Below, one piece after another: positions 1 to 46,148 of a DNA stretch of 51,209 bases; the stretch's first letter is position 1, and every line of letters begins with the position of its first letter. The DNA comes from a virus: positions 1 to 51,209 of IMG/VR virus record IMGVR_UViG_3300031759_001107; one strand, written 5' to 3'. The notes under the pieces were generated by a model. It made no database searches, had not been told where the DNA came from, and was given only the letters and a program-made list of their open reading frames with translations. The position numbers and the translations under genes are program-made.

Positions 1-214
1 CGTAGGCACTTTCGTTAGCGTCCCAGTCGTATTCCCATTCAGGTTCGTCATCGCCTGATGATGCATTAGGTACGCACATTTCAAATTCAATGCCCATAAG
101 CATGCCTTCTGCTTCTGGACTATTGGCAAATTTTTCAAGGCTGGTTGGACTCATTGATACTTCATCAATGATCTCTGCTTCTCGTAGGGCTTTTTTAATT
201 TGACTGTAACGCAT
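1..214 (-). CDS. Partial gene, N-terminus of possible amidoligase-like protein
   Basis: Open frame running off the left window edge, starting at ATG 214. It begins MRYSQIKKALREAEIIDEVS, and around residue 43 has a G-I-E-F-E-M stretch followed by an acidic region. A Gly-x-Glu-Phe-Glu strand is seen near the N-terminus of amidoligase and glutamate-cysteine-ligase-like ATP enzymes, but 71 residues are too few to decide, so that assignment is a guess. A late-promoter octamer lies at 246-253, giving a leader of about 25 bases. The gene is therefore probably expressed late. Stop and full length lie outside the window. Confidence 0.55.
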   Translation of the reverse strand, partial: MRYSQIKKALREAEIIDEVSMSPTSLEKFANSPEAEGMLMGIEFEMCVPNASSGDDEPEWEYDWDANESAY

Positions 215-1116: not shown

Positions 1117-1521
1117 TTACTTCTTAATTATTTCCGCTGAACTAATATCAACAGGGCCTTCAATCCAATATTCGTCTATTTCTTCCGGCTCGTATTCCCA
1201 CGCATTTGGATCGTACTCACTGTGTGTCATCCCCATTGTTTTTAGATATGTTCTATTACCAGCAATGGGATATATGTTATTAGACAGTTTGCTCGCGTCA
1301 ATTCTAATTAATGTATCACCAGTCCATCTGCCAATATGTGCTTCATCTGTAAAACTATTGCCTGGAACTAACCTATCAACAGCATCAATATAGTGAGCAT
1401 ACTTACGTTTAACCGGCAGCTTGCCTGCATCAATATACTTCTGGAATTGTTGACCGTTCACCCATTTATATAGATAACGCGGTATATGGGAGTCTTCTTT
1501 TAAGAATTCGTTTGCTCTCAT
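1117..1521 (-). CDS. Possible ADP-ribosyltransferase-fold protein with capsid-targeting-like N-terminus
   Basis: 134 aa from ATG 1521. A longer frame would start at TTG 1569, but the peptide MRANEFLKE matches the start shared with other genes here, so 1521 is preferred although no Shine-Dalgarno is visible. After the leader come R-Y-L-Y-K-W, G-N-S-F-T, an I-R-I-D-A-S-K-L strand and a late acidic E-I-D-E-Y-W-I-E. This order (Arg strand, S-x-T, late Glu) recalls ADP-ribosyltransferase or RNA 2'-phosphotransferase folds, but the match is loose. T4 packages and injects the ADP-ribosyltransferase Alt with a similar N-terminal tag, which makes the idea attractive. Function is an inference; the gene itself is secure. 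Confidence 0.5.
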   Translation of the reverse strand: MRANEFLKEDSHIPRYLYKWVNGQQFQKYIDAGKLPVKRKYAHYIDAVDRLVPGNSFTDEAHIGRWTGDTLIRIDASKLSNNIYPIAGNRTYLKTMGMTHSEYDPNAWEYEPEEIDEYWIEGPVDISSAEIIKK

Positions 1522-1528
1522 GATAAGA

Positions 1529-1615
1529 TCACAGTAAAACAATAGCCCATGACCAAGCAACAAGTCCAACTACTATGGTCAGGGGTAAGTTTTCAAATGT
1601 AAAATATTCTCTCAT
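1529..1615 (-). CDS. 28-aa membrane microprotein
   Basis: Short frame whose ATG (1615-1613) overlaps the TGA stop of the upstream nucleotidyltransferase as ATGA. It ends 7 bases before the ATG of the next gene. The product starts MREYFTFENLPL, then about 16 hydrophobic residues with two Trp (VVGLVAWSWAIVLL), a single membrane span. The coupling overlap and exact fit in the gap support translation; such tiny frames can arise by chance, so confidence is moderate. Function unknown. Confidence 0.45.
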   Translation of the reverse strand: MREYFTFENLPLTIVVGLVAWSWAIVLL

Positions 1616-2799
1616 AGATATCCTACCCACGCAGGACCTTTGTATCCTTGTGGGTTTGCTTTGAAGTGCTGTATAGTTCTATGCCAGCCTTCTATTAGGT
1701 AGTATTGATGACGACCTTTCATTAACACAATAGGCTCTGGACTAATGCCACGTTGTTGTATCATTGCGGCCTGTTGAGCATGACGTTCGTCGTCTTTTGG
1801 TACATTATAAGGATTTTGAATAGTATCTGTACCTACCCCACGTGCTATTAATTGTTTTCTGGTTTCTGGATGAAACATCTTAAACGTAATAGGCATGTCA
1901 TTAATCAACTCCCAACGTTTAACTTTGTAGTCTTTCTTAATGCCAGCGATCCAATCTTCTAACTCTGCAGAATCAGTTATACCTTTGGCATTTTTATACA
2001 GTAGATCATTTACCACATACGGTGGCCATGTAGGAAACTGTTGCTGTAGATAATCCTGCAACTTGTTTCTTAGTTCGTTAATAACTTGTTCATCTAAGCT
2101 CAATTCCTGATCAAACTTTTGATTTTTGGCTTTGTATAGTTTATCCATGTAACCTTTGTTACGCAGGATTTTAAATGCTAGATTTTCTGTACTAAACTCA
2201 CCGTTAGCATCTAAACCAGCTTGACGCATTGTTTTAATTTTGTCTTTTAGTCTGTCTAGGTCTTCTACACTACCTGATTTAACTGCGCGATTGACCTGGG
2301 TCATTAGGTCACGGGCTTTGGCATTAACAGCACGGTCATCTATAGTAGGCTCTTCGTGTTTAGGCACACTTACCCATTTATCATCTAAGATATCGTATGT
2401 GCCTGAGCTGACGTTTTTAGCATCAACGTCTTCTACATAAAGTTCTACTTCATAGCCTTTGATAGTAATGTCATGTTCGTCGTTCCATATCTTTTTCTTG
2501 GCCATGTAAAACTGTTCTGTGATATCACAGCCTAGATCAGCATAGTTGGTAACTAGGTGTAGATCAAAGTCACTGTAGGGAGTATAGTTATAGTTAGCTA
2601 GACTACCACGTAATAAGATACCTGATAGTTTAAAGTCGGGTACTTCTAAGTATTCAATAAAACGATGTGCTATTTCTAATAGCCTATAGCGCACGTCAAT
2701 ACGAAGTTTATAACCTTTGCCAAATACATCATCCCATACTTCTGGATTTAATTCTTCATGGTAAGCAATGTTACCTTTGACTAGATCTTTTGCTCTCAT
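1612..2799 (-). CDS. Nucleotidyltransferase fused to a ParB/sulfiredoxin-like domain
   Basis: 395 aa from ATG 2799, which overlaps the TGA of the upstream gene as ATGA and begins MRAKDLVKGN, the leader type shared with 4065 and 1521. Residues 60-85 carry the polymerase-beta-type nucleotidyltransferase signature: L-L-R-G-S at 62-66, then D-F-D at 77-79 followed by L-H. A third acidic strand (V-E-L-Y-V-E-D) follows. A Lys/Arg-rich helical middle leads to a C-terminal segment with E-G-W-H-R-T near residue 370, preceded by P-I-V-L-M-K and Y-Y-L-I, which resembles the phosphate-binding core of ParB/sulfiredoxin-fold proteins. The combination suggests NMP transfer to a protein or nucleic acid; target unknown. 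Confidence 0.75.
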   Translation of the reverse strand: MRAKDLVKGNIAYHEELNPEVWDDVFGKGYKLRIDVRYRLLEIAHRFIEYLEVPDFKLSGILLRGSLANYNYTPYSDFDLHLVTNYADLGCDITEQFYMAKKKIWNDEHDITIKGYEVELYVEDVDAKNVSSGTYDILDDKWVSVPKHEEPTIDDRAVNAKARDLMTQVNRAVKSGSVEDLDRLKDKIKTMRQAGLDANGEFSTENLAFKILRNKGYMDKLYKAKNQKFDQELSLDEQVINELRNKLQDYLQQQFPTWPPYVVNDLLYKNAKGITDSAELEDWIAGIKKDYKVKRWELINDMPITFKMFHPETRKQLIARGVGTDTIQNPYNVPKDDERHAQQAAMIQQRGISPEPIVLMKGRHQYYLIEGWHRTIQHFKANPQGYKGPAWVGYL

Positions 2800-3536
2800 A
2801 TATGATCCATGTTTACAAACTGACGGAACCAAGCACCTGTACCTGGAAGTGGTGCAGATTCTGGTAATACTAACTGATCTTTAGCAAATGATTCGCGTGC
2901 ATCTGCTGTTAGTTGGTCGTAGTCTTGACGACCTTTGATTTTTTTAATAATACTTTCAACGCTGGCTAAGTCTGCTGGAACTCCGTCTACTAGGCGTGCA
3001 GCAATTTCTTTAGGATCTTGTGTAATAACTTCATTGGTAGCACGATCAACTAGGCCGTATTTTTGACTCCATTTTAGTCCCTGAGCTTTAGCAATACTGC
3101 TGAGTAAAATATGGCGATGTAGTCCTTTGTATGGGCTACCTTCTGGGCTACCAGTTAGACTAAATTTCTGCCAACTAGGCTCGCCAAACATAAAATCAGT
3201 TTGTACATAACCGTTAGCTGCATCACCTAGGATAGGTGTCTTTAAATGCACACTATCGCCTGTTTTTCTGATGTCTTTTGGGTCAATTCCCTTCTTAATC
3301 AGCTGATTTATTAACGTTTCTTTTGAGATTTTACTAACATCTACACCTAGGTCTAGATCACCTGAAGTTTCTTTGTAACCTGTACTGCCTAGCATATTGT
3401 CTACTAGATTCAGTCCAGTTAGCTTCTCTAACCATTGTACTGTTGGAACCACATTGTTGCGAGTGATACGAATAGTTGCGGGTTGACCCTTTTCGTCTTT
3501 AAAAACATTACCGCCTTCATATAAATTAATAGCCAT
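2796..3536 (-). CDS. Second nucleotidyltransferase-fold protein
   Basis: 246 aa. Residues 49-64 read L-G-S-T-G-Y, then S-G-D-L-D-L, the Gly-Ser plus DxD pattern of polymerase-beta-type nucleotidyltransferases. A later Q-T-D-F-M-F supplies a plausible third carboxylate. The product is unlike its neighbour 1612-2799 outside this motif, so they are not recent duplicates. The start at 3536 overlaps the end of the HAD gene by 11 bases, and its stop forms ATGA with the next gene. Consecutive nucleotidyltransferase-type genes imply a shared nucleotide or modification pathway (inference). The fold is likely, the substrate unknown. Confidence 0.65.
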   Translation of the reverse strand: MAINLYEGGNVFKDEKGQPATIRITRNNVVPTVQWLEKLTGLNLVDNMLGSTGYKETSGDLDLGVDVSKISKETLINQLIKKGIDPKDIRKTGDSVHLKTPILGDAANGYVQTDFMFGEPSWQKFSLTGSPEGSPYKGLHRHILLSSIAKAQGLKWSQKYGLVDRATNEVITQDPKEIAARLVDGVPADLASVESIIKKIKGRQDYDQLTADARESFAKDQLVLPESAPLPGTGAWFRQFVNMDHI

Positions 3537-4065
3537 ATGCGTGTGCTAGTCCTTTTGCTACTACGTCTAAACTGTCTTCATCTGCTTGATACTTAATGCC
3601 AATACCACCACGGGCACGCCAAGCAACAATGTTAGTGCCGCGATCATCAATTAAGATATTTGGGCTACCATCTGGGTTTACTGCATGACGTTCTTTTTGC
3701 CCTGTGATAACAACGTCACTGGGTTGTGGGCTTAGATGTTTAGCGATCCATACACGTTTCCATTTACTGCTATTCTCGTGATCCCCACGTAAAGGACTTG
3801 AACAGATGTTATAGTGTGGTACGTAACTCAATACTAGTTGTATTAAGTTTGGCGCTGTGCTAAACATAGGCAAGCGAGCAAAGAAATCAGTGCCAATCAT
3901 TTTGTCTAGGGTAGGATCAGCTTTAGCTGGTGGTATATCTCTGTAGCTACCGCTAGTAACCCCAGCTAGTTTTGCATATTCTGCAAAAAAGTCTGCAAGG
4001 ACTCCATCCATGTCTAGGTAAATTTTAGTGTTGTCTGTTGCTCTAATTAGGTCTTTTGCTTGCAT
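3526..4065 (-). CDS. HAD-family 5'(3')-deoxyribonucleotidase-like phosphatase
   Basis: 179 aa from ATG 4065 (MQAKDLIRAT). The frame is open to 4107, but the conserved leader supports 4065. The HAD nucleophile motif is D-M-D-G-V at residues 18-22, with V-L-A-D-F after it. The last motif is I-D-D-R-G-T-N near 142-148, as in deoxyribonucleotidases that dephosphorylate dNMPs. Length is typical. It would recycle or trim nucleotides from degraded host DNA. Two promoters serve it: a sigma70 site at 4099-4127 and a late octamer at 4073-4080 only 7 bases before the ATG. The preceding speD-like operon is closed by a hairpin terminator at 4133-4152. Confidence 0.8.
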   Translation of the reverse strand: MQAKDLIRATDNTKIYLDMDGVLADFFAEYAKLAGVTSGSYRDIPPAKADPTLDKMIGTDFFARLPMFSTAPNLIQLVLSYVPHYNICSSPLRGDHENSSKWKRVWIAKHLSPQPSDVVITGQKERHAVNPDGSPNILIDDRGTNIVAWRARGGIGIKYQADEDSLDVVAKGLAHAYGY

Positions 4066-4072
4066 GATGTAG

Positions 4073-4080
4073 TATTTATC
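4073..4080 (-). promoter_or_regulatory. Late promoter, GATAAATA, near-leaderless
   Basis: GATAAATA ends 7 bases before ATG 4065. With T4-like spacing, transcription would start about two bases before the ATG. Confidence 0.6.
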
Positions 4081-4098
4081 GTGATTTAAGATACAAGC

Positions 4099-4127
4099 AT
4101 TATACACGAATTTGGTAAAAAAGTCAA
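4099..4127 (-). promoter_or_regulatory. Sigma70-type promoter TTGACT-17-TATAAT
   Basis: Minus strand: -35 at 4122-4127, -10 at 4099-4104, spacer exactly 17. The -35 follows directly on the U tract of the terminator at 4133-4152. The spacer contains TTTACCAAA, close to the element shared by the promoters at 42423 and 48797. Confidence 0.8.
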
Positions 4128-4152
4128 TAAAAAACCACCCTTGCGAGTGGTT
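4127..4152 (-). terminator. Rho-independent terminator after the speD-like gene
   Basis: In the minus-strand RNA, AACCACUC pairs with GGGUGGUU around a GCAA tetraloop (4133-4152), followed by UUUUAUU. It closes the 4168-5319 transcript just before the promoter at 4099-4127. Confidence 0.8.
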
Positions 4153-4167
4153 GTTTGTTAAGTTATG

Positions 4168-4584
4168 TTAAACTTGTAAGGCCGCGTTCCGTGGAATTAA
4201 CATCTTGTTAATCTTGGTGTTTGCGCCAAAGAATGAGCTAATACTAGCTTCTACTTTTGTAGGATCAAATTCTTTACAGCTAAACACATCAATGTAGATA
4301 TGCTGTGTGCTGTCAATAAAATGTGCTACAATACTGCTGGTTACAATGATCTGTATAGCAGTGTAGCCTTCTTTATCAGGCATGCCAACACCAGTCATAG
4401 TCACAATAGGATCACCTACTGCGGTCATATCAATAGCGGTCAGCAATGATGATAACCAAGACTTGATGTTGTCTGCACTTTGAATTTTATCTAGATCACA
4501 TCCACTGCAATCAAAGATTCCATGAAAGCCCCAAGGCACCACTGATTGTGGTGCTGGAACCTGTACTTGGACGGTATCTACCAT
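4168..4584 (-). CDS. speD: S-adenosylmethionine decarboxylase-like (SpeD family) protein
   Basis: 138 aa, about the length of bacterial SpeD proenzymes. Family landmarks: G-F-H near residue 20, D-C-S-G-C-D at 25-30, H-I-Y-I-D-V-F-S-C at 95-103, and a late Ala/Ser-rich helix. At the self-cleavage site, where classical enzymes have Glu-Ser-His, this protein has T82-S83-S84 with H88 conserved. The pyruvoyl-forming Ser is thus kept but its two neighbours are changed. Some SpeD homologues are known to have become arginine or ornithine decarboxylases, so the substrate is open. A Shine-Dalgarno (AAAAGGA) precedes ATG 4584. A polyamine role fits phage DNA packaging. Confidence 0.75.
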   Translation of the reverse strand: MVDTVQVQVPAPQSVVPWGFHGIFDCSGCDLDKIQSADNIKSWLSSLLTAIDMTAVGDPIVTMTGVGMPDKEGYTAIQIIVTSSIVAHFIDSTQHIYIDVFSCKEFDPTKVEASISSFFGANTKINKMLIPRNAALQV

Positions 4585-4608
4585 AATTGAAAATCCTTTT
4601 AAATTTGA

Positions 4609-5319
4609 TTACTGTGGTAAGTTAAATTTGATACCTGTAGCCGCTTCAATGTTAGCCACTGTAGTTGCATACTTAGGTAAGTCTGCTACTGGTAGTGCTG
4701 CGTTTGGCATTAACCATGCTGTAACTTTTTTGCTTTTCTTTTCGTATACAATTTTGTATAAACGTGTAGGAATACCTAAACCGCTACCAATCTTTTGATA
4801 ACCTTGATCCCAAATACCACCACTGATAACATAGTAGTCTGTGTTTGGTGTTAGAGCCCATTGACGTTCAAATGTTTCTGCTTGTTTCCAAATACCACGG
4901 TTGTTGTTAGCTACTTGTGGAACCATATTTGACAAGTTAAAACTTTCACTCATGATAGCATCACTTTGTGTGTTGTTACCTGCTGGAGCCATATGACCAC
5001 GATCATGTGTTTTACCAACAATAGCATAATCTGCTAGGCTAGCTGAACATGCTGGTGTTACACTTGTGTCTGGGTGGAAATTGTCCTTGCGTTTTGCTGG
5101 ACCACTAATTGCTGCTGGTGTTAAATGCTCAAATACTGCTTCTGGTGCTTTAACATCGCAACGATGAATAACAGCGTAGTTCATGTGACATAGTTCTTGG
5201 TCACCTGGTTTAGCTGTGTATGTTGGTAATGCTACTTCAAACTGACTACAATCTTTAAGGCCAGCAAATGCTGACATTGATGTTGCTAATAATGCTACTG
5301 CTACTAATAGTTTTTTCAT
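4609..5319 (-). CDS. Secreted DNA/RNA non-specific endonuclease
   Basis: 236 aa. Residues 1-19 form a clear Sec signal peptide (Lys-Lys, hydrophobic core, A-F-A cleavage site). The mature protein has the Serratia/NucA nuclease motif D-R-G-H-M at 106-110 with catalytic His109. It also has the metal-binding Asn region S-F-N-L-S-N-M-V-P-Q and N-N-R-G-I-W near 137-160. Family members hydrolyse DNA and RNA with Mg2+. Export to the periplasm is unusual in a phage: it could destroy incoming competitor DNA or scavenge nucleotides (inference). The Shine-Dalgarno AAAGGAAAG precedes ATG 5319. It is followed by speD in one transcript ending at 4127. Confidence 0.88.
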   Translation of the reverse strand: MKKLLVAVALLATSMSAFAGLKDCSQFEVALPTYTAKPGDQELCHMNYAVIHRCDVKAPEAVFEHLTPAAISGPAKRKDNFHPDTSVTPACSASLADYAIVGKTHDRGHMAPAGNNTQSDAIMSESFNLSNMVPQVANNNRGIWKQAETFERQWALTPNTDYYVISGGIWDQGYQKIGSGLGIPTRLYKIVYEKKSKKVTAWLMPNAALPVADLPKYATTVANIEAATGIKFNLPQ

Positions 5320-5333
5320 TGAACTTTCCTTTA

Positions 5334-7250
5334 TTAATAAATTAAAAATACTGCGCCTGGTGCTCCTGTAGAACCAGGACCAACAGCACCACTGCCTATG
5401 TTGTCATAGCCTGTACCAGGTACACCGTAGGTATATCCTGTTTGGTATGTACCATAATATGGCCATCCCCAATTCCAGTAACCACCCCAACCCCAACCAT
5501 AATTATAGTAACCATACCCATAGTAACCATTATTATAGTATGCATTGCCATAATAGCCGTTCCAGTACCCATTATAGTAGCCGTTCCAGCCCCAGCCGCC
5601 CCAGCCCCACCACCAGTAGTAGTAAGAATAAACAGCTTGCCCACTGGTACCTGCGGCACCAGTTAAGTTTGTATCGCCACCTGTGGCTGTACCACCACTA
5701 CCACCAGCATCTGTTCCGCCAGTTTGGCTAGCACCTGCTCCGCCACCGTGTGCAATTATAGTACTATTAAAACTACTGTCCTGTCCTGTGGCACTAGTTC
5801 CTGCACCAACTACTGCGGTATAGGTTGCACCTGGGGTAACTGTTAGATACTTTTCTGCATATCCACCTGCGCCACCAGCACCACCTGTTCCTGCTCCGCC
5901 TGCACCATATACTCTGGCTTTAACACGAATAATATCCGCTGGACAGATCCAACTATAAGTGCCCTGTGTAGTATATTGTACACTACGTTTGTCGTTAATT
6001 ACAGTAGTACTTAGTAGTGGATTCCAAGCACCATTATTTTTTATATAAATTTGAGAGATACTTTGCCATTGGCCATTTACTTTTTGCCAAGCATTGGTAA
6101 TTTGATTCCACGCACCAGTTACTTTATTCCAAAGCTGGAATCTACGTGTCAACACCAATATAGCATACCCACCATATCCAGCATTACCATATGGTGCAGT
6201 TGGCGCATAAGTGGTTGTACGGCCACCTGCAAATTCTCCTGATCCTGGCAGTTTAGTATCGCCTAGTTGAAGTCCGCCGCTACCGCCTGGAGCACCTCCC
6301 TGGTCATCGCCTGTGGCAGTGCCGCCAAGGCCTCCAAATACACCACCGCCTCCTCCGCCGCCACCAGCTGATCCATAAGCACCTGCTGCGCCTTGTGTGG
6401 TTGAATTTAGTTGTGGGAAGTTCTGCGGATTTCTAGTATCCCATAGTTCTGAACTGTCTGGATTTAAAATCTGTGCTGCAATACCTGCTGGGCCACCTTG
6501 GTTAGTGATACTTAATGTTATAGTATGATTGCCTGCGGTAACTGCGTGTGTAGTAGTTCCAGTTGTGGTAAAATCGCTATAACTTATTATCAATGTTGAA
6601 TCTAAAGTTAGACTACCATAGTTGTCTGTTGATAGATTAAATGTATATGTGCCTGATGTAGGGAAATTTACAATAGTAGTATAGACATTAGTAGTAACAT
6701 CTTGACTACCACCAGTCCAAATAGCATAGCTATTCATAAAACTATTCCAAGCCCAGCTTAGTGATACTGGATACCACCCAGTGGCACTTGCCTGCACTCC
6801 GCCAGGTAATCCCGCTCCACCGGCGCCACCATCGTCTCCGTTACCACCACCACCACCGCCACCAGCGGCTACAGCTACAGGTATTCCGTTAACTTCTACT
6901 ACGGTAGCTCCACCACCACCACCACCTGCGCCCATGTCTGCATCTTCGTCGCCACTACCGCCGCCTGAACCGCCGGCATAGCTAAAACCAATACTACTAC
7001 CGCCACCTGCGCCTGCACTTTGCCCACTAGCAGCCGCACCCTGTAGGCCAACGCCAATTTCAACAATATCGCCTGGATTGATAGTAACCAGAGATTTAAC
7101 ATATCCACCACCGCCACCAACTCCGCCAGTGCCGTCACCACCACCTGCTCCCCAGCAATGTACTTCTACATTAGCTTGGAATCCTTTGGGCATAGTAAAC
7201 GCCTTTGGGCCTGGTGTGCTTGATATATAATAATACTGTAATGATGCCAT
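5334..7250 (-). CDS. Glycine-rich tail adhesin with aromatic C-terminus
   Basis: 638 aa. Residues 1-150 are a glycine-rich domain (W-G-A-G-G-G, poly-Gly runs). A PA14-like beta stretch (about 185-275) follows, then a second Gly-rich block. Near 370-415 come repeated W-containing units (W-N-K-V, W-N-Q-I, W-Q-K-V), then a third Gly-rich block. The last 100 residues include about 65 residues made almost only of Tyr, Trp, Gly and Asn. Glycine-rich tip proteins of T4-like phages bind receptors through polyglycine loops, so a fibre-tip adhesin is likely. The start codon shares one base with the stop of the previous gene (TAATG). Confidence 0.7.
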   Translation of the reverse strand: MASLQYYYISSTPGPKAFTMPKGFQANVEVHCWGAGGGDGTGGVGGGGGYVKSLVTINPGDIVEIGVGLQGAAASGQSAGAGGGSSIGFSYAGGSGGGSGDEDADMGAGGGGGGATVVEVNGIPVAVAAGGGGGGGNGDDGGAGGAGLPGGVQASATGWYPVSLSWAWNSFMNSYAIWTGGSQDVTTNVYTTIVNFPTSGTYTFNLSTDNYGSLTLDSTLIISYSDFTTTGTTTHAVTAGNHTITLSITNQGGPAGIAAQILNPDSSELWDTRNPQNFPQLNSTTQGAAGAYGSAGGGGGGGGVFGGLGGTATGDDQGGAPGGSGGLQLGDTKLPGSGEFAGGRTTTYAPTAPYGNAGYGGYAILVLTRRFQLWNKVTGAWNQITNAWQKVNGQWQSISQIYIKNNGAWNPLLSTTVINDKRSVQYTTQGTYSWICPADIIRVKARVYGAGGAGTGGAGGAGGYAEKYLTVTPGATYTAVVGAGTSATGQDSSFNSTIIAHGGGAGASQTGGTDAGGSGGTATGGDTNLTGAAGTSGQAVYSYYYWWWGWGGWGWNGYYNGYWNGYYGNAYYNNGYYGYGYYNYGWGWGGYWNWGWPYYGTYQTGYTYGVPGTGYDNIGSGAVGPGSTGAPGAVFLIY

Positions 7251-7714
7251 TAGTCTGAGTCCTTAGCTGATTTGGCTAGTTTGGCCGCAAGTTGATGTAC
7301 TTGTGTACTGTATTCTTCACCTGCTTTATTTCTAAGATGTTTTAAAAATTCAAAATACTTGTGCTTGTGTTCTTTTGGATTATCTAAGGACAATCCTATT
7401 AGGTTGCGTGCTGTGATAATGTCACCAAAATCTACATGTTCATTTTCATTGGTGATATAGTTACTTGTGGCTAGGTCTTCCCACATGCCCTGACCTGTGT
7501 GATAGGTACTGTTGCTACCACCCGACCATTCACCACCATTTTCGTGCCATTGCCCGTTGCCTGTGTGATAGGTATTGTCCTGGTTAGTCCACTGGTCTTC
7601 AGCTACAGGGGTCTTGCTTTTAAGCGGGCGAGGAACTGGGACTATACAATCTTTAAACTCATTGGTTTGAGATTGTTTACGTTTAGTTTCAAAGAAAAAT
7701 TCTGTAATCAGCAT
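7250..7714 (-). CDS. Unknown virion-type protein with capsid-targeting-like start
   Basis: 154 aa from ATG 7714 (MLITEFFFE). The frame opens at ATG 7729, but that codon overlaps the late octamer 7720-7727, so 7714 is preferred. The middle contains two T-Y-H-T-G-x-G-x-W units about 25 residues apart, separated by a Gly/Trp/Ser-rich linker. The C-terminal 70 residues are charged and helical. The leader resembles the T4 capsid-targeting sequence and has an F-F-E site like the (L/I)-x-E cut of the prohead protease. No known fold recognised. It shares TAATG with the adhesin gene that follows. Confidence 0.6.
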   Translation of the reverse strand: MLITEFFFETKRKQSQTNEFKDCIVPVPRPLKSKTPVAEDQWTNQDNTYHTGNGQWHENGGEWSGGSNSTYHTGQGMWEDLATSNYITNENEHVDFGDIITARNLIGLSLDNPKEHKHKYFEFLKHLRNKAGEEYSTQVHQLAAKLAKSAKDSD

Positions 7715-7719
7715 AAGAG

Positions 7720-7727
7720 TATTTATC
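7720..7727 (-). promoter_or_regulatory. Late promoter, GATAAATA, leaderless
   Basis: Octamer separated from ATG 7714 by exactly 5 bases, which places the expected start site on the A of ATG. No Shine-Dalgarno is present. Confidence 0.65.
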
Positions 7728-7739
7728 ATGATTTAACAC

Positions 7740-7768
7740 TTGACAACTTTAGATTTTGAGTGTATAAT
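7740..7768 (+). promoter_or_regulatory. Consensus sigma70 promoter TTGACA-17-TATAAT
   Basis: Perfect -35 (7740-7745) and -10 (7763-7768) with 17-base spacing, directed at the plus-strand gene at 7802. It is divergent from the late promoter at 7720-7727. Confidence 0.9.
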
Positions 7769-7801
7769 AGACGTATTATTAACCATTAGGTGAACCCAAC
7801 A

Positions 7802-8248
7802 ATGACTACATTCAACAAACAGTTAACCAACATTATTTCAGATCCGTTTGACGGGCCATTTGAAGGTGAAGATTTTTGGATTGACGATGATGGTACTATT
7901 CAAGTAGCAGAAAACAATGTTCGAGTAGCTGCTATGATCATGCGTAAAGCTAATTCAAGTGGCGTATTTGATCAACGATTAGTTAAGATTGGTGCTCAAG
8001 GTGACAGTATTCTACTAGGGTTTGACACTCTAGCTGATGTTGCTCCAGTATACACTGCTAAGATTGGATTTAAAGGTGATATGCTAGCAGAAGTCAAAGC
8101 AGACCTAACTGGTAAGTTCTGCTTGTACATCAATGGTAAACGCGGTGCTAAACTGTTTAATAAACTAGCAAGTGTAAAATCAGCAATTAAAAAGCTAGAC
8201 AAGGAACTGCAATCAGCTGGGCAAGAACCAGAAGACCTAGATGACTAA
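7802..8248 (+). CDS. Unknown early protein under a perfect host promoter
   Basis: 148 aa from ATG 7802, with AGGTG seven bases upstream; an in-frame GTG at 7790 is less likely. The product starts MTTFNKQLTNIISDPFD, has an acidic stretch (G-E-D-F-W-I-D-D-D-G) and a beta-rich middle. The C-terminus is basic then acidic (K-S-A-I-K-K-L-D-K-E, ending E-P-E-D-L-D-D). No known fold recognised. Alone on the plus strand behind TTGACA-17-TATAAT, it should be strongly expressed at once on entry, so a host-directed role is plausible (inference). Its stop overlaps the stop of the converging 8245-10197 gene by 3 bases. Confidence 0.8.
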   Translation: MTTFNKQLTNIISDPFDGPFEGEDFWIDDDGTIQVAENNVRVAAMIMRKANSSGVFDQRLVKIGAQGDSILLGFDTLADVAPVYTAKIGFKGDMLAEVKADLTGKFCLYINGKRGAKLFNKLASVKSAIKKLDKELQSAGQEPEDLDD

Positions 8249-10197
8249 GTCTTAGGTTGTTGTTTGGCCTGTTGTTGCTGTTGTTGTAGCTGTGTTTGCT
8301 TGGCCTGTGTTGATAGATTTTTAAACTGTTGTGCAACCTTTGGGTCAGTGCCAGCAGTTTTCATCACATCCATCATAGGTTTAAGTTTAGTCATATCCTG
8401 TTGATTAACCTGTTTACCTTGGCTAACATCATCTAGTGCTTTGGCAATATCTTTTGGCTGTGCTGTGATTCCTGCAGCAGATTTAAGAGTGTTTAATGCA
8501 ATAGCAGTCTGTGCCGCTGTTTTAGGATCTTGTTCAGCTTGTTGATCTGTAGGTTGATTGGCTGGATTAACAGAACCAGTAGACTGTGGATTAGCCATTG
8601 GCACAATGTCTTCTTCTACTTCATCTTTCCAGATTGAATGTTTGAATGGACTTTTGTAGTCTTTGGCTAATTTTTTTGCAATCTCTGCATTTTTCTTTTC
8701 GTGAGCAGCACGTTCTTCTGGAGTTTGATCTAAGAAACGTTGCCAACTGTCACGATCCTTTAATTTCTTATCAATTACTTTATGTCCGCTACTTTCTTTA
8801 ATAGCCTTGGTTACAAAGCCCATTTTATAGTAGTCACGTTCACCTGGTGTTAACTGTGAACGATATCTTTTAGCACAAGCAAGGGCTTCTTCTTTAGTGT
8901 CAAATACCTTGTATGGTTTGCTGTTATCACTACCAACGCTACCACCTTTGGCAAACACACCGTATTTTACAGTAGATGTAGCTTCATCTAAGTCTTCACC
9001 TGGGAATTTATGTCCACGACCACGAACAACGTATTCGCCAGCGTGTGCGGCTTTTTCAGCTTCACTAGCTTTCCAACTACGTAGATGTTTTAATCTACTG
9101 GTCATTTTAGGATCGTTTTTGTATTTTTCTAAAGTTTTGTCCCAGTCACTTTGTTGTTCTGCGTGACGAGCATTGGCCGCATCAGCACCCCAACCTTCAT
9201 TTTTAGGTTTCTTATGAGCTTTCTTCATTGAAATAGCAATAGCCGCTTGCTGTGCTGGATTGATTGCTTCACTTAGTGCTGAACGCATTTCTGCTTTGGT
9301 TTTTTTGTATTTTTTAAGAAATTCTTCGTCAGATAGTTCTTTGAGGTCAATGGCAACGTCTTTAACACGACCTTCTGTGACTTGTTGTTCTTCACTGCCT
9401 ACTTCGTAATATGTACTACTGTGTCCATTTCTGGCAGCGTTACTTGCGGCTTTGTTTAAGTTGTCAACTAGACTCTTAATGTTCTTAGGTGCCATGTTGA
9501 TTTTGTAACGACCACGTTCGTGTTCGTATGATTTGCCTGTTTCTAATGTGTAGCCAAAATAGTCTAGCAATTCTGGAATAGTACCTGATGTTGAACGTGT
9601 TCTATCTTCGCCACCAAAACTACTGCGGCGCACAATGTTTACAGTATAAACACGATCAGCAACACCTTCTTCTAAGTCGTCGTCATCTTGACCTAAATGT
9701 TTGCCAAAATCTTTAGCTAGATCTTTAGTAAATTTTTTAGTATCTTTTACAGGTTTACCTTGAACAGCTTTTTGTCCTGGCTCTAAATCCTGTGATCCCC
9801 ATGGTTTGTAATCTTCTTGATCTCCATGTTCATTTACGCTAACTTCTTTATAACGTTTACTTGGTTTACCGTGTTTAGTATATTCACGTTCCGGGCGACT
9901 GCCTTTGCGACTTGGACGTTTAGGTTCTACACCTAGGTCATCTTCCATAAACTGTGCATAGGCTTCTGCTAGTTCTTCTTCAACGGTTTTGGCCTTAGGA
10001 CCTTTGCTTAGGTCTTTTAGAATACTTTCGTCATATTCTTCTGCACCACCGCCTACCATTTTGTTACCTGGTGTTGCTGAGTCTGTGCCTTTCCAATAGC
10101 CTGTAAACTTAGGGCCTGTAGGCGCCTTTTCGGCACCCTTCATAGACTCTTTGCCTTCTAGTCTAGTAATTGATTCTAAAAGTTTTTTCATGTCCAT
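8245..10197 (-). CDS. Large charged modular protein, possible internal head protein
   Basis: 650 aa, low-complexity and highly charged. It starts MDMKKLLESITRLEGKE, with an L-L-E resembling a prohead-protease site after the leader. Lys/Glu-rich linkers join small folded modules: a Y-T-V-N-I-V-R strand domain (about 183-250), helical M-K-K-A-H-K-K-P segments, and a Y-G-V-F-A-K-G-G domain (about 405-460). The tail is a Gln-rich stretch of about 120 residues ending Q-Q-Q-Q. Charged internal or core proteins of T4-like heads look like this, but no homology is certain. It is followed 2 bases downstream of the Dps stop, so it is probably co-expressed with Dps. Confidence 0.6.
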   Translation of the reverse strand: MDMKKLLESITRLEGKESMKGAEKAPTGPKFTGYWKGTDSATPGNKMVGGGAEEYDESILKDLSKGPKAKTVEEELAEAYAQFMEDDLGVEPKRPSRKGSRPEREYTKHGKPSKRYKEVSVNEHGDQEDYKPWGSQDLEPGQKAVQGKPVKDTKKFTKDLAKDFGKHLGQDDDDLEEGVADRVYTVNIVRRSSFGGEDRTRSTSGTIPELLDYFGYTLETGKSYEHERGRYKINMAPKNIKSLVDNLNKAASNAARNGHSSTYYEVGSEEQQVTEGRVKDVAIDLKELSDEEFLKKYKKTKAEMRSALSEAINPAQQAAIAISMKKAHKKPKNEGWGADAANARHAEQQSDWDKTLEKYKNDPKMTSRLKHLRSWKASEAEKAAHAGEYVVRGRGHKFPGEDLDEATSTVKYGVFAKGGSVGSDNSKPYKVFDTKEEALACAKRYRSQLTPGERDYYKMGFVTKAIKESSGHKVIDKKLKDRDSWQRFLDQTPEERAAHEKKNAEIAKKLAKDYKSPFKHSIWKDEVEEDIVPMANPQSTGSVNPANQPTDQQAEQDPKTAAQTAIALNTLKSAAGITAQPKDIAKALDDVSQGKQVNQQDMTKLKPMMDVMKTAGTDPKVAQQFKNLSTQAKQTQLQQQQQQAKQQPKT

Positions 10198-10199
10198 AA

Positions 10200-10640
10200 T
10201 TAGTTACCTTTAAGTGTTGCACGTAAGAACCAAGCGTGTTTAGCAAATGCATCTTGACGATCTGCTAGGAAGTTGCTTAGGCCGTGATGCCCAAGACTTT
10301 CAGCTTCAACAAACAACACTTTCATAATTTCTTGCATTTTTTCAGCATCGCCCAATAATTCTGCTACCATAGCCTGTGGATCTAAAACTGCTAGTTCATC
10401 ATCAACTGCGGTCAATGATGAAAAACGTTCTAGGCTTGCTGGAGTATAGGCTTTGATCTTACGGATATTTTCTGCAAAATCATCCACGGCACCGTAGACT
10501 TCGTTGTAGATTGTTTCAAACAACAAATGCAGTTGATAGAACTCTGGACCTTCCACGTTCCAGTGAAAGTTCTGTGCTTTGATAGCAAACGCATATTGGC
10601 TAGCAAAAGCAATCTTTAACTGCGTTGAAAACTTATCCAT
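10200..10640 (-). CDS. dps: Dps-family DNA-binding ferritin
   Basis: 146 aa. The ferroxidase-site residues have exact Dps spacing: His26 in F-H-W-N-V-E-G, His38, Asp53 and Glu57 (gaps 12, 15 and 4). The rest is the usual four-helix bundle. Dps dodecamers oxidise Fe(II) with peroxide and can coat DNA. The N-terminus is short, without the Lys-rich tail used by E. coli Dps for DNA binding, so iron/peroxide detoxification is the safer role. It lies between likely structural genes. The ATG shares a base with the upstream stop (TAATG), suggesting co-translation with them. Confidence 0.92.
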   Translation of the reverse strand: MDKFSTQLKIAFASQYAFAIKAQNFHWNVEGPEFYQLHLLFETIYNEVYGAVDDFAENIRKIKAYTPASLERFSSLTAVDDELAVLDPQAMVAELLGDAEKMQEIMKVLFVEAESLGHHGLSNFLADRQDAFAKHAWFLRATLKGN

Positions 10641-11035
10641 TATTTCTTTTTAGCCTTGCTTTTTTTAGGTTGTTGGTAAGTGCCACCAAACAAGCTACCT
10701 ACTTGGCTACGTTTAGCCATGCCACCCATAGGAGTAGTAGCAATACCACCGCTTGATGTACCACCGCCACTGGCATCTTCTGATACTTGGTCTACTTTAG
10801 GATCAATACCTAATGATTTTTGACTGACAATATAATCACTAACACTAACCATCATACCCTTAACTGCGGCGATTTTTTCTTGGCACCATTCAGGTAGATT
10901 GTCATCGTGTTTGATGTGATTGGCCAAGTCTACTAATGAACGCATGATAGTTACAAGGTTGTTTTCTACCATACCTGCTTCATCATTGTATTCTTTGCTG
11001 TCAAATTCTTCTTTAATAAATTCTGATGGTTTCAT
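10640..11035 (-). CDS. Small conserved virion-type protein with capsid-targeting-like start
   Basis: 131 aa, starting MKPSEFIKEEF, the closest match here to the T4 capsid-targeting sequence, including an I-K-E cleavage-like site. It continues with an acidic helical domain (A-G-M-V-E-N-N-L, N-L-P-E-W-C-Q-E-K-I), then a Gly/Ser/Thr linker and a very basic end (K-K-S-K-A-K-K-K). Similar helical N-L-P-E-W proteins occur in marine T4-like phages as far as I recall; function unknown. The Shine-Dalgarno TTAGGAAA precedes the ATG. The late octamer is at 11056-11063. Confidence 0.7.
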   Translation of the reverse strand: MKPSEFIKEEFDSKEYNDEAGMVENNLVTIMRSLVDLANHIKHDDNLPEWCQEKIAAVKGMMVSVSDYIVSQKSLGIDPKVDQVSEDASGGGTSSGGIATTPMGGMAKRSQVGSLFGGTYQQPKKSKAKKK

Positions 11036-11055
11036 AATAATTTCCTAATATAGTG

Positions 11056-11063
11056 TATTTATT
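11056..11063 (-). promoter_or_regulatory. Late promoter, AATAAATA, containing a stop codon
   Basis: The TAA stop (11059-11061) of the 11059-11373 gene is positions 3-5 of the octamer. It serves the gene starting at 11035. Confidence 0.6.
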
Positions 11064-11373
11064 CTATAATAAAACTTAGTTGAGTCTTCGCACCACCCCA
11101 ATCTGGTTTAGGCCAATTGTTTACTTTGAAATTACGTAGGCCAAATTGTGCTATAGACCTAGGTTCTAGGATAGGTTCTATTCTAACAGTATGTGATAGG
11201 TGTGGGGGAACATCAACTAGTATATTTTCTTCAATTACAGTGTCTATGTTCCAAATCCAAGTACGTTCTGTAATTAGATCATCATTGACATACAAGCGAT
11301 AACGATTACGTTCATGATCAATCCATCTAGGCTGCAGTACCTGCACTTGTACACTCAGACTAACTTCTGCCAT
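11059..11373 (-). CDS. Unknown beta-rich protein
   Basis: 104 aa, nearly all alternating hydrophobic/polar strands with several Trp and Arg (R-N-R-Y-R-L-Y-V-N-D-D-L-I). It resembles 12198-12644 in layout: an N-terminal strand, a 'yvNdd.I' turn, and a later H-x-V/L-x-I strand. Both could be small carbohydrate-binding-type beta sandwiches, as found near fibres, but no signature residue is secure. It is separated by 2 bases from the upstream adenylyltransferase gene. Confidence 0.65.
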   Translation of the reverse strand: MAEVSLSVQVQVLQPRWIDHERNRYRLYVNDDLITERTWIWNIDTVIEENILVDVPPHLSHTVRIEPILEPRSIAQFGLRNFKVNNWPKPDWGGAKTQLSFIIE

Positions 11374-11375
11374 GA

Positions 11376-12167
11376 TTAAACAGGTTTCTTGCCTTTGCCT
11401 ACATTCTTACCAACTGGAATTTGTCGTGTTGGTGCACCTGGATTTTTGCGGCCTACTAGACCAAATGCTTTCATTTCTTTACCAAGTGTGTTAGGTTTTA
11501 CATCTACTGTTAGACTGTTATTATATCTACGATCGCCACCTTTAACTACACCCACTCCACCTGCTTCAGCAATATTTTCAGTTAGACCCATACCAGCTCT
11601 AACTGCTTGGAATAGTGACTGTGCAAATTTACCTGCACCTGTGGCCTGTGAAAAAGCCTGCATATTATTGGCCATTGCGGCCGCACGTGCTTGACTAGCA
11701 CTAACGCCTTCTACGCCTTCTGCACCGTCTTCACGTTCGCCACTTGATACAAAATCAATATTAGCAAATTTATAGTAGGTTTTCTTGCCTTCTACACCAT
11801 TATAACTGGTGAGTAGTTTTTGGAATGCTTCTAGTCTATCACTACCCGCTACAAAGGTAACATGTGTGTATCCATGATCATATAAAAATCCAGCTATTTC
11901 TATGATAGTGCGTAACTCAGTTGTGCTAACATGGCCAGCATATTTAGGAAACATCTGTTTAATAAATTTGATTTTAGTATCGTAGTCTAGGGGATTGTCT
12001 TTGCGATCTTGTGTGTGACTAAGGAATATGTAATAGTCACCACCTTTACCAGCTTTTTGTGTGGTGGCCATTAGTTGAGCGTGACCAATGGTAGGCGGGT
12101 TCATGCGGCCAAAACAAAATGCTGCATGCTTGGGTTGTTTAGTTTCGTATAATTCAGTTAATAACAT
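11376..12167 (-). CDS. NMN-adenylyltransferase-like nucleotidyltransferase
   Basis: 263 aa. F-G-R-M-N-P-P-T-I-G-H at residues 19-29 is the (H/T)xGH motif of the nucleotidylyltransferase superfamily. V-S-A-S-Q-A-R near 153-159 matches the second (I-S-S-T-x-x-R-like) motif. Such enzymes make NAD from NMN and ATP or activate other small molecules. The N-terminal MLLTELYE resembles the capsid-targeting leader with an L-Y-E site. The C-terminal 70 residues are Gly/Lys-rich and unlike NadM/NadD. A late octamer lies at 12190-12197. NAD synthesis would fit with the ADP-ribosyltransferase-like 1117-1521 (inference). Confidence 0.75.
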   Translation of the reverse strand: MLLTELYETKQPKHAAFCFGRMNPPTIGHAQLMATTQKAGKGGDYYIFLSHTQDRKDNPLDYDTKIKFIKQMFPKYAGHVSTTELRTIIEIAGFLYDHGYTHVTFVAGSDRLEAFQKLLTSYNGVEGKKTYYKFANIDFVSSGEREDGAEGVEGVSASQARAAAMANNMQAFSQATGAGKFAQSLFQAVRAGMGLTENIAEAGGVGVVKGGDRRYNNSLTVDVKPNTLGKEMKAFGLVGRKNPGAPTRQIPVGKNVGKGKKPV

Positions 12168-12189: not shown

Positions 12190-12197
12190 TATTTATC
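12190..12197 (-). promoter_or_regulatory. Late promoter, GATAAATA, abutting a stop codon
   Basis: It follows directly on the TAA stop of the 12198-12644 gene and serves the gene at 12167. Confidence 0.65.
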
Positions 12198-45761: not shown

Positions 45762-46148
45762 TTAGTTTGCTGAAAACACTTTAGCACGTGAACCTGCAAC
45801 GTCACGAGCAACGATACGGTAAGTTGCTTTACCTGAGGTGTTTTCATCTGTGTAGATTACTAAACCAGCATCGCGCATTTCACTAATACGTGCTGACAAT
45901 TTTGCAATACCGTAGTTAGCTTTTGCTTGCGCTACTGATAAGGTACGACCTGTACCACGTAGGTATTTTTCTAAGAACGCTTTTTGGTTAGTTACCTTAG
46001 CTAGGTTAACTGAAGCTTTTTTAGGAGCCTTAGCTGGTGCCTTAGCAGGTGCTTTTGCTGGAGCCTTAGCAGGTGCTTTTGCTGGAGCCTTAGCAGGTGC
46101 TTTCTTAGCTGGTGCTGTTGCCATTGTTACTTTAGTAGTTTTTGCCAT
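45762..46148 (-). CDS. KAPA-repeat histone-like protein with helix-turn-helix domain
   Basis: 128 aa. Residues 12-45 are a Lys-Ala-Pro-Ala repeat like bacterial histone-H1-like tails. The rest is a winged/helix-turn-helix domain (F-L-E-K-Y-L-R-G-T-G-R-T-L-S-V-A-Q-A, Y-G-I-A-K-L-S-A-R-I-S-E-M-R-D-A-G-L). This L-S-V-A-Q-A...L-S-A-R-I-x-E-M-R pattern is a known phage HTH domain. It should bind DNA, as a nucleoid-like or transcription factor. A sigma70 promoter (46205-46233) makes it early. The tail is encoded by 24-base tandem repeats. Confidence 0.85.
   Translation of the reverse strand: MAKTTKVTMATAPAKKAPAKAPAKAPAKAPAKAPAKAPAKAPKKASVNLAKVTNQKAFLEKYLRGTGRTLSVAQAKANYGIAKLSARISEMRDAGLVIYTDENTSGKATYRIVARDVAGSRAKVFSAN
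46039..46103 (-). repeat. 24-base tandem repeat encoding Lys-Ala-Pro-Ala units
   Basis: Two exact 24-base copies (46039-46062, 46063-46086) plus a 17-base partial copy. Length can change by replication slippage in steps of 8 residues. Confidence 0.8.

Follow-up and report, generated by a model that had tools for sequence, protein, structure and literature searches.

A T4-like N-terminal leader shared by unrelated enzymes of an uncultured phage, and its probable role as a portable capsid-targeting sequence

The 51,209-bp IMG/VR record IMGVR_UViG_3300031759_001107, analysed here over its entire length and called the window below, carries a block of minus-strand genes whose products—predicted nucleotidyltransferases (NTases), a nucleotidase, a nicotinamide mononucleotide adenylyltransferase (NMNAT)-like protein and others—begin with similar short peptides. 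We propose that this shared N-terminus is probably a portable capsid-targeting sequence (CTS) of the T4 type on an enzyme set delivered from the phage head, with packaging, cleavage and injection inferred. Because the front-end tag resembles the tag with which T4 loads its head, the phage particle probably contains the enzymes and delivers them together with its DNA. The window aligned over its full length (51,210 columns, 99.96% identity), in reverse, to G001:82564-133773, part of a 149,159-bp contig of a T4-superfamily phage.

A sequence-only reading had listed seven such N-termini, and all of them are present, on the minus strand; to these we add an eighth leader-like start, MAINLYEGG at 3536, absent from that list (ortholog in the relative G3: MVTKLLEGG). 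As the same reading noted and as can be read directly, [L/I/F]-x-E ends the leader in five of the seven and is absent from the two A-K-D-L forms. The block comprises, in the window:

1..214, minus: start of a 1107-aa amidoligase-like gene, N-terminus MRYSQIKKALREAE, complete at G001:133560-136883
1117..1521, minus: 134-aa protein, leader MRANEFLKE, putative cut before D
1612..2799, minus: 395-aa nucleotidyltransferase-like protein, leader MRAKDLVKG, without the cleavage Glu
2796..3536, minus: 246-aa protein with a predicted Pol-beta-type nucleotidyltransferase fold, leader-like start MAINLYEGG
3526..4065, minus: 179-aa HAD/5'-deoxyribonucleotidase, leader MQAKDLIRA, without the cleavage Glu
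7250..7714, minus: 154-aa protein, leader MLITEFFFE, putative cut before T
8245..10197, minus: 650-aa protein, N-terminus MDMKKLLESITRLEG (begins MDMKKLLESI), leader-like, the weakest fit
10640..11035, minus: 131-aa protein, leader MKPSEFIKE, putative cut before E
11376..12167, minus: 263-aa NMNAT/cytidyltransferase-like protein, leader MLLTELYE, putative cut before T

Leader proteins are referred to below by the position of their start codon. The likeness to T4 lies in the spacing of the leader. In the T4 record, ipII and ipIII begin MKTYQEFIAE, gp24 MAKINELLRE and Alt MELITELFDE. IPII, IPIII, gp24 and Alt are reported to be trimmed by gp21, with gp24 losing 10 residues (PMC9958956). For IPIII, residues 4 and 7 are reported as the main determinants of targeting and residues 8 and 10 as those of processing; gp21 cuts after L/I-X-E, and Asp at position 10 inhibits processing while leaving targeting unaffected (PMC9026906). 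Most window leaders keep this spacing one residue earlier (positions 3, 6, 7 and 9), and hydrophobic residues at i, i+3 and i+4 are present in the window set. We formulated a strict rule—hydrophobic residues at 4, 7 and 8 plus Glu at 10, the positions being taken from PMC9026906 and the residue classes chosen in this analysis—which matched 5 of 253 called T4 genes (ipII, ipIII, gp24, alt and 61.1) and none of 905 internal methionines; in lambda, it matched 0 of 57 N-termini and 1 of 235 internal methionines. In the relatives' gp23, L-[A/M/S/K]-E stands just before the mature-like start in all seven cases (by eye). As a side observation, T4 gene 61.1 (L209:18966-19130; MKTFKEFIKEDMV), which fits the strict rule, is by its sequence a candidate unrecognised head protein.

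The leader is also commoner than expected. A position-specific scoring matrix was built from six of the seven listed peptides and tested on five relatives that gave no seeds: 15 of the 1,485 N-termini called there scored at least 8 bits, compared with a single one of 6,484 internal methionines (p=1e-10), the new matches including MRAKEFITE, MRANEFISE, MRAREFIRE, MRAQEFVGE, MRATDFITE and MLLNEFFKRSLTEGG. Across G001:121606-138969, 12 of 20 genes carried a unified or core motif, as did 22 of the 173 genes in the rest of the contig (p=7e-6), these regular expressions (regexes) having been composed after the peptides had been seen. Three simple regexes (R1–R3) gave weak or mixed enrichment, and the matrix performed better.

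Homologous bodies carry different leaders. Those of DUF6321 begin MRAIEFLTE, MKINEIIVE, MRAREFINE, MKLNEIIVE, MKSSDFVVE or MKSTEFITE, and NMNAT-like proteins MLLTELYE, MFLTELFE, MLLTEIYE or MFLNELFE; HAD homologs have MQAKDLIRA or MRAEELIRA, the called starts of several lacking a leader (for example, MSKPEVYLDMDG in L080). Relatives of the 11035 protein occur in many phage contigs, some with and some without a leader. Homologs were also sought with queries that began at residue 16, leaving out L001-L003, L007-L009 and L081 (copies of the window or G3), near-identical proteins and proteins below 60 aa. For 13 leader-gene bodies, 149 homologs were retained, 83 of them with the core motif; for 28 control bodies, 26 of 229 had it. 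These counts are not independent, and three leaderless HAD proteins among the 83 match the regex by accident; minus the five closest relatives, the figure for the leader-gene bodies was 57 of 117.

A leader of this type recurs beside the portal gene. T4 has genes 67 and 68 between the portal gene and gp21. The relative G003 (G3; 189 kb), which has many collinear stretches in common with G001, shows the order portal, small gene, 308-aa gene, gp21, gp22-position gene, gp23, with profile matches to Portal_T4 (Pfam, E=6e-103), Peptidase_S77 (E=8.5e-30) and Gp23 (Pfam, E=6e-96) and, for the gp22-position gene, to a PHROG without function. By eye, the leader type is present on the first small gene downstream of the portal in all seven relatives that were read over their full length and possess a gp20–gp23 module (the gp21-bearing contigs G011 and G014 lie outside this set), the starts being MNLFEILEP, MLLNEFIYF (twice), MFLREFIYF, MKLYEFFYF, MFVTELFDP and MLLQEFWKK. 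A wider scan used 74 of 80 listed loci, 44 of which had a portal and a next gene; three had a long first gene, and 38 distinct proteins were left. Among the loci listed, the core regex matched 21 of these 38 slot proteins, whereas it matched 6 of the 194 remaining genes in these loci (p=1e-14); many of the slot proteins missed start like MKLFEMFD or MFINEMFD or are truncated (by eye).

Late-promoter-like boxes point in the same direction. ATAAATA stands within 80 nt upstream of 21 of 74 leader genes versus 205 of 2,149 others (p=6e-6), and in G3 it also precedes the portal and many structural-region genes, from which the leader genes appear to be expressed with the late virion genes. The window has four of these late-promoter-like ATAAATA boxes:

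4073..4079, minus: 14 nt upstream of the start codon at 4065
7720..7726, minus: 12 nt upstream of the start codon at 7714
11056..11062, minus: 27 nt upstream of the start codon at 11035
12190..12196, minus: 29 nt upstream of the start codon at 12167

No such box precedes 1521, 2799, 3536 or 10197 in the window. Four boxes lie 12–14 nt from the ATG with no Shine-Dalgarno sequence (window 4065 and 7714; G3 168590 and 164796), which suggests leaderless late mRNAs at these genes.

Virion proteomics of cyanophage isolates has picked up homologs of two window enzymes. By mass spectrometry (MS), 52 of 219 coding sequences (CDS) of S-CREM2 were detected in virions (PMC10665884). The window NMNAT-like protein (12167) has a homolog in virion protein ORF154 (36% identity, 3 peptides) and the window NTase (2799) in ORF156 (35%, E=2e-43, 6 peptides), while the G001 gene 137485 protein is 72% identical over 97 aa to virion protein ORF137. 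The strict rule had 5 matches among the 52 detected proteins and 1 among the 167 others (p=0.003), although the S-CREM2 N-termini had been seen before the rule was fixed and two looser rules tried earlier gave p=0.31 and p=0.15. The five are an S-adenosylmethionine (SAM) hydrolase (MKDFDSFLEE), ORF13 (MKDLHSFLTE; one peptide), a kinase (MKRFDAFLTE), ORF136 (MQTFSMFFSE) and a cytidyltransferase (MKNFSSFLTE). A cytidyltransferase or NMNAT was likewise detected in virions of S-SM1 (PMC3037559), S-SCSM1 (PMC9602691) and S-SZBM1 (PMC9146016); virion proteins of S-CREM2, S-SCSM1 and S-SZBM1 are homologs of the window NMNAT-like protein, the S-SM1 protein being described as a putative citidylyltransferase. 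The S-SCSM1 enzyme starts MKSFLQFLKE and that of S-SZBM1 MRFRQFIIEA, in a shifted register. A Ser/Thr kinase has been reported in S-CRM01 virions (PMC10665884) and is presumably the kinase annotated in the S-CRM01 stretch that starts MISFDQFLSE.

Further cyanophage proteins have similar starts. The Cas9-like virion protein gp12 of S-CREM2 (L200:7704-10313, minus) contains a CTS-like RFASFMAEA at residues 18–26. Two adjacent small S-SZBM1 proteins (MKSFKSFLSES and MKTFKQYITEA) and one of S-SCSM1 (MKTFKQFMSES) match the strict rule (L294:22311-23125 and L297:44215-44535); all three adjoin virion genes and were undetected by MS.

The enzymatic assignments made from the sequence alone fared unevenly. 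The NMNAT-like label is borne out for the 12167 protein (NMNAT/cytidyltransferase-like PHROG, E=1.5e-49; Pfam CTP_transf_like below cut-off), as is the HAD phosphatase for the 4065 protein, a 5'-nucleotidase (Pfam NT5C, 25.4 bits, cut-off 24.8). The nucleotidyltransferase label of the 2799 protein stood on a weak profile: phrog_36119 (E=1.5e-44) has no function given, the palm-domain match is weak and below cut-off, and the L036 homolog matches NTP_transf_2 below cut-off (E=0.006). For the 2796-3536 protein, the AlphaFold model (pLDDT 79, with leader residues 1–7 below 50) gave Pol X polymerases as top Foldseek matches (E ~1e-4, probability 1.0, TM ~0.4), so that a second NTase with a Pol-beta-type fold is predicted. 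PADLOC returned no matches for ten cluster proteins, and PDB sequence searches yielded no informative match.

The block extends past the window's left edge in G001, where the amidoligase starting MRYSQIKKALREAE (PHROG E=1e-6) is accompanied by a HExxH zinc-peptidase-like protein (MNIIDLFEE; SprT/M91 matches weak, below cut-off), a DUF6321 protein (above cut-off; MRAIEFLTE), a cytidine-deaminase family protein (above cut-off; MFLAEFGPP, outside the regexes) and a further protein starting MTNWETYVKE. Other genes sit among the leader genes in the window: a leaderless ferritin/Dps-like protein (10200-10640), with homologs in many loci around 11035-type genes, and a protein (4609-5319) with a signal-peptide-like N-terminus that by eye resembles a DNA/RNA non-specific endonuclease. 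Positions 5334-7250 encode a Gly-rich 638-aa protein whose C-terminal stretch is rich in Trp, Tyr and Gly, and positions 45762-46148 a 128-aa protein with histone-H1-like KAPAKAPAK repeats near its N-terminus.

Enzymes that are separate here are joined in relatives. The NTase, zinc-peptidase-like protein and amidoligase form one chain in L036 (1396 aa) and G9 (1384 aa as called), whereas the window and G001 encode them separately, as three genes that each bring a leader. A 1270-aa L207 protein with HD and poly(A)-polymerase domains also holds a module (residues 955–1084) that shares 67% identity with the 1521 body. Several effector domains on one polypeptide are thus a feature of L036, G9 and L207 and not of the window or G001; among homologs of at least 600 aa, the core regex fits 13 of 23. 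Relatives also have single-enzyme leader proteins, among them Nudix and GH19 proteins whose matches exceed the cut-off and a GNAT-like one whose match stays below it. Seemingly leaderless NMNAT proteins of relatives, with the start MPLAVFCFGRMNPP, were rejected, as these starts are internal methionines: in L062, L052, L060 and G13, an 800-aa protein starting MNLFELFSP has the NMNAT domain as its C-terminal part. This 800-aa protein combines DUF6267 with the NMNAT-like domain (L051:283-2691, L060:7296-9698, G13:115274-117682), and G001 has a standalone DUF6267 protein starting MKLFEIKNQ. The GH19 chitinase-like protein of G7 (103509-104144; L130:3509-4144) has the leader MRATEFVTE followed directly by a Tat signal (Pfam TAT_signal, 9–29). 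A cut after E9 would give the N-terminus MDRRGFLRG; protease maturation would therefore uncover a second sorting signal.

The mechanism we propose follows T4. The leader would act as an amphipathic CTS of 8–10 residues, patterned as hydrophobic residues at i, i+3 and i+4 followed by Glu at i+6, where i is 4 in T4 and 3 in most of the window leaders. Appended to unrelated enzymes of a late-expressed gene block, it would dock them on the prohead scaffold core. A gp21-type protease would cut after [L/I/V/F]-x-E and release the enzymes inside the head; the members without this Glu (MRAKDLVKG and MQAKDLIRA) would be packaged uncut. The enzymes would then enter the host with the DNA and act before phage genes are expressed. 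Given the T4 precedent, docking and trimming are the most likely fate of the leader proteins in the window phage; packaging in this phage, cleavage, injection and host targets we infer.

A number of observations weigh against this proposal. The idea of a head-packaged set with a capsid-targeting-like leader, already put forward in the sequence-only reading, gains from several indirect lines (the T4 match, the portal-adjacent gene, late boxes, leader swapping, virion MS of homologs, and separate genes for enzymes fused elsewhere), and is held back by a contig without a head module. The gp21-type protease that the earlier reading would have sought elsewhere in the genome was not found by profile search (Peptidase_S77) in the window or the 149-kb G001, although in 9 of the 20 contigs of relatives a match exceeds the cut-off; no gp21, gp22 or gp23 was detected in G001. 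Of ten G003 structural-region proteins compared with G001, the portal alone matched, as a 76-aa fragment, and G001 is therefore probably incomplete, its head module missing. The ADP-ribosyltransferase label given to 1117-1521 is unsupported: Pfam and PHROG gave no match, PDB and NCBIfam matches were at chance level, and the AlphaFold model, built from two sequences, was unusable (pLDDT 43). In T4 itself, the strict rule misses IPI, gp21, gp22, gp67 and gp68, and gp67 and gp68 start without the leader. The three slot proteins tested belong to phrog_13986, a PHROG of unknown function, and because it has no function given, their equivalence to gp67/gp68 is one of position alone; in S-CREM2 and S-SZBM1, the portal-adjacent gene falls outside the leader pattern. 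So do the fusions of L036, G9 and L207 with respect to the core regex. Boxes were absent before all 10 leader genes of G13 (0/10), and the octamer TATAAATA was not enriched before leader genes (3/74 vs 41/2,149, p=0.18).

The virion data contain counterevidence, too. ORF156 and ORF137 of S-CREM2 fail the strict rule. Fixed beforehand, that rule matched 0 of 30 virion proteins versus 2 of 154 others in S-SZBM1, and 1 of 48 versus 1 of 208 in S-SCSM1, whose virion set is the 48 CDS tagged in the record (the paper gives 45; PMC9602691). Pooled over the three phages, 6 of 130 virion proteins matched versus 4 of 529 others (p=0.006), an enrichment carried by S-CREM2. The S-CREM2 authors state that such proteins could be co-purified (PMC10665884), and those of S-SCSM1 mention possible carry-over (PMC9602691). 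Finally, gene calls for the IMG/VR contigs, T4, lambda and the non-virion genes of S-SZBM1 and S-SCSM1 came from a simple gene caller, so some called starts are wrong (for example, that of the 1521 gene in G1, since corrected).

Of the alternatives, the one that retains an appreciable, if minority, chance is that some proteins (NMNAT-like, NTase, DUF6321, 11035-type) are packaged, and that others (such as 1521 and 10197) owe their leader-like starts to linkers of multidomain proteins that have split, and have a late function in the cell. The 1521 gene lacks a clear ribosome site and its N-E-x-L-x-E-D segment is conserved internally in L207, for which reasons its leader may be domain sequence. 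MKKLLESI of the 10197 protein fits the pattern poorly, Glu is missing at the cleavage position of two of the seven listed leaders—those of the HAD protein and the NTase—and the HAD homologs without leaders fit such a split as well. However, HAD and NTase orthologs retain their leaders in four phages, and the NTase leader is identical in these, all 15 codon differences (codons 2–10, all pairs) being synonymous and none non-synonymous. Other leaders vary in residues and mostly keep the pattern, with synonymous versus non-synonymous differences of 11 versus 17 (HAD), 11 versus 50 (NMNAT) and 6 versus 24 (11035 protein).

Far less probable is that the leader docks late proteins elsewhere, on another part of the particle (neck, tail or baseplate) or, within the infected cell, on a complex of host or phage. 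ATAAATA boxes do precede many structural-region genes, head genes and others, and the virion data stem from isolates outside this clade; yet the same leader type occurs in the gene between portal and protease, the pattern is shared with T4 proteins trimmed by gp21 in the head, and most leaders have Glu at the gp21 cleavage position. Marginally less likely still, and disfavoured, is a general tendency of N-termini, with translation favouring charged amphipathic starts, that caught the eye because seven such genes cluster: the core regex alone matches 320 of 2,269 remaining proteins (14%), and the enrichment given by R1 fell short of significance in G1 and G3 (p=0.19 and p=0.07, respectively) and was borderline in G15 (p=0.03), but the scoring-matrix result, the excess over control-body homologs, the clustering in G001 and the swapping of leaders on homologous bodies all speak against it.

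Taking the leader as a CTS, the closest known counterparts are the T4 proteins IPI, IPII, IPIII, Alt and gp24 (the CTS being that of IPII and IPIII), which likewise combine a short N-terminal leader (hydrophobic residues at i, i+3 and i+4, and Glu at i+6, the latter in most window members) with varied bodies and late genes; the gp21 family is present in the window phage's relatives. The window leaders are, in contrast, mostly one residue shorter and known here from sequence, whereas those of T4 are removed by gp21, and the bodies in the window block are mostly nucleotide- or protein-chemistry enzymes, about a dozen genes in one block. The virion enzymes of cyanophages S-CREM2, S-SM1, S-SZBM1 and S-SCSM1 (cytidyltransferase/NMNAT, APH-like kinase, SAM hydrolase) include homologous NMNAT-like and nucleotidyltransferase proteins, and 5 of 52 S-CREM2 virion proteins have T4-register leaders; the available parts of those papers name no targeting signal. 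Polyvalent proteins, whose frequent domains are peptidases, ADP-ribosyltransferases, kinases, GNATs and Pol-beta NTases (PMC5512222), overlap in repertoire (Pol-beta NTases, peptidases and GNATs; the ADP-ribosyltransferase only claimed), in predicted head delivery and in the fusions of relatives; in the window, by contrast, the domains are separate proteins with their own leaders. The giant phages phiKZ and SPN3US (PMC9026906) are alike by description only, with ejected or internal head proteins and propeptides cut by a gp21-like protease.

Parts of this proposal have precedents. That varied cargo may be CTS-tagged has been considered for T-even phages (PMC3012670, PMC9026906), and CTSs may allow T4-like phages to package various proteins (PMC9026906). 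NAD/ADP-ribose enzymes have been argued to be head-packaged in myoviruses from gene context and MuF fusions, with no leader used (PMC9503650). A search of open-licence literature for such a leader in cyanophages or metagenomic T4-like phages brought up papers on T4, P1 and giant phages (SPN3US) and, among what it listed, no tagged enzyme block of such size in the wider T4 superfamily tied to a portal-adjacent gene and fused relatives.

For the lineage as a whole, we offer more tentatively, and at somewhat below even confidence, that the leader serves as a portable address label for the head core, by which at least a dozen enzymes per capsid may be carried as separately tagged parts, that polyvalent proteins and tagged single enzymes may interconvert by fission and fusion, with new fragments gaining leaders, and that maturation may uncover the G7 Tat signal for the next host. 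The NTase, peptidase and amidoligase, fused in relatives and separate here, would link T4 internal proteins with polyvalent proteins. Odd enzymes recur in the virion MS of T4-like cyanophages, carry-over not being excluded by the authors of two papers; if the proposal is true, the leader would be a sequence rule for head-delivered phage proteins that can be checked in existing MS data, and pre-loaded nucleotidyltransferases, a nucleotidase, an NAD-type enzyme, a peptidase and a deaminase would act in the first minutes of infection by these uncultured phages.

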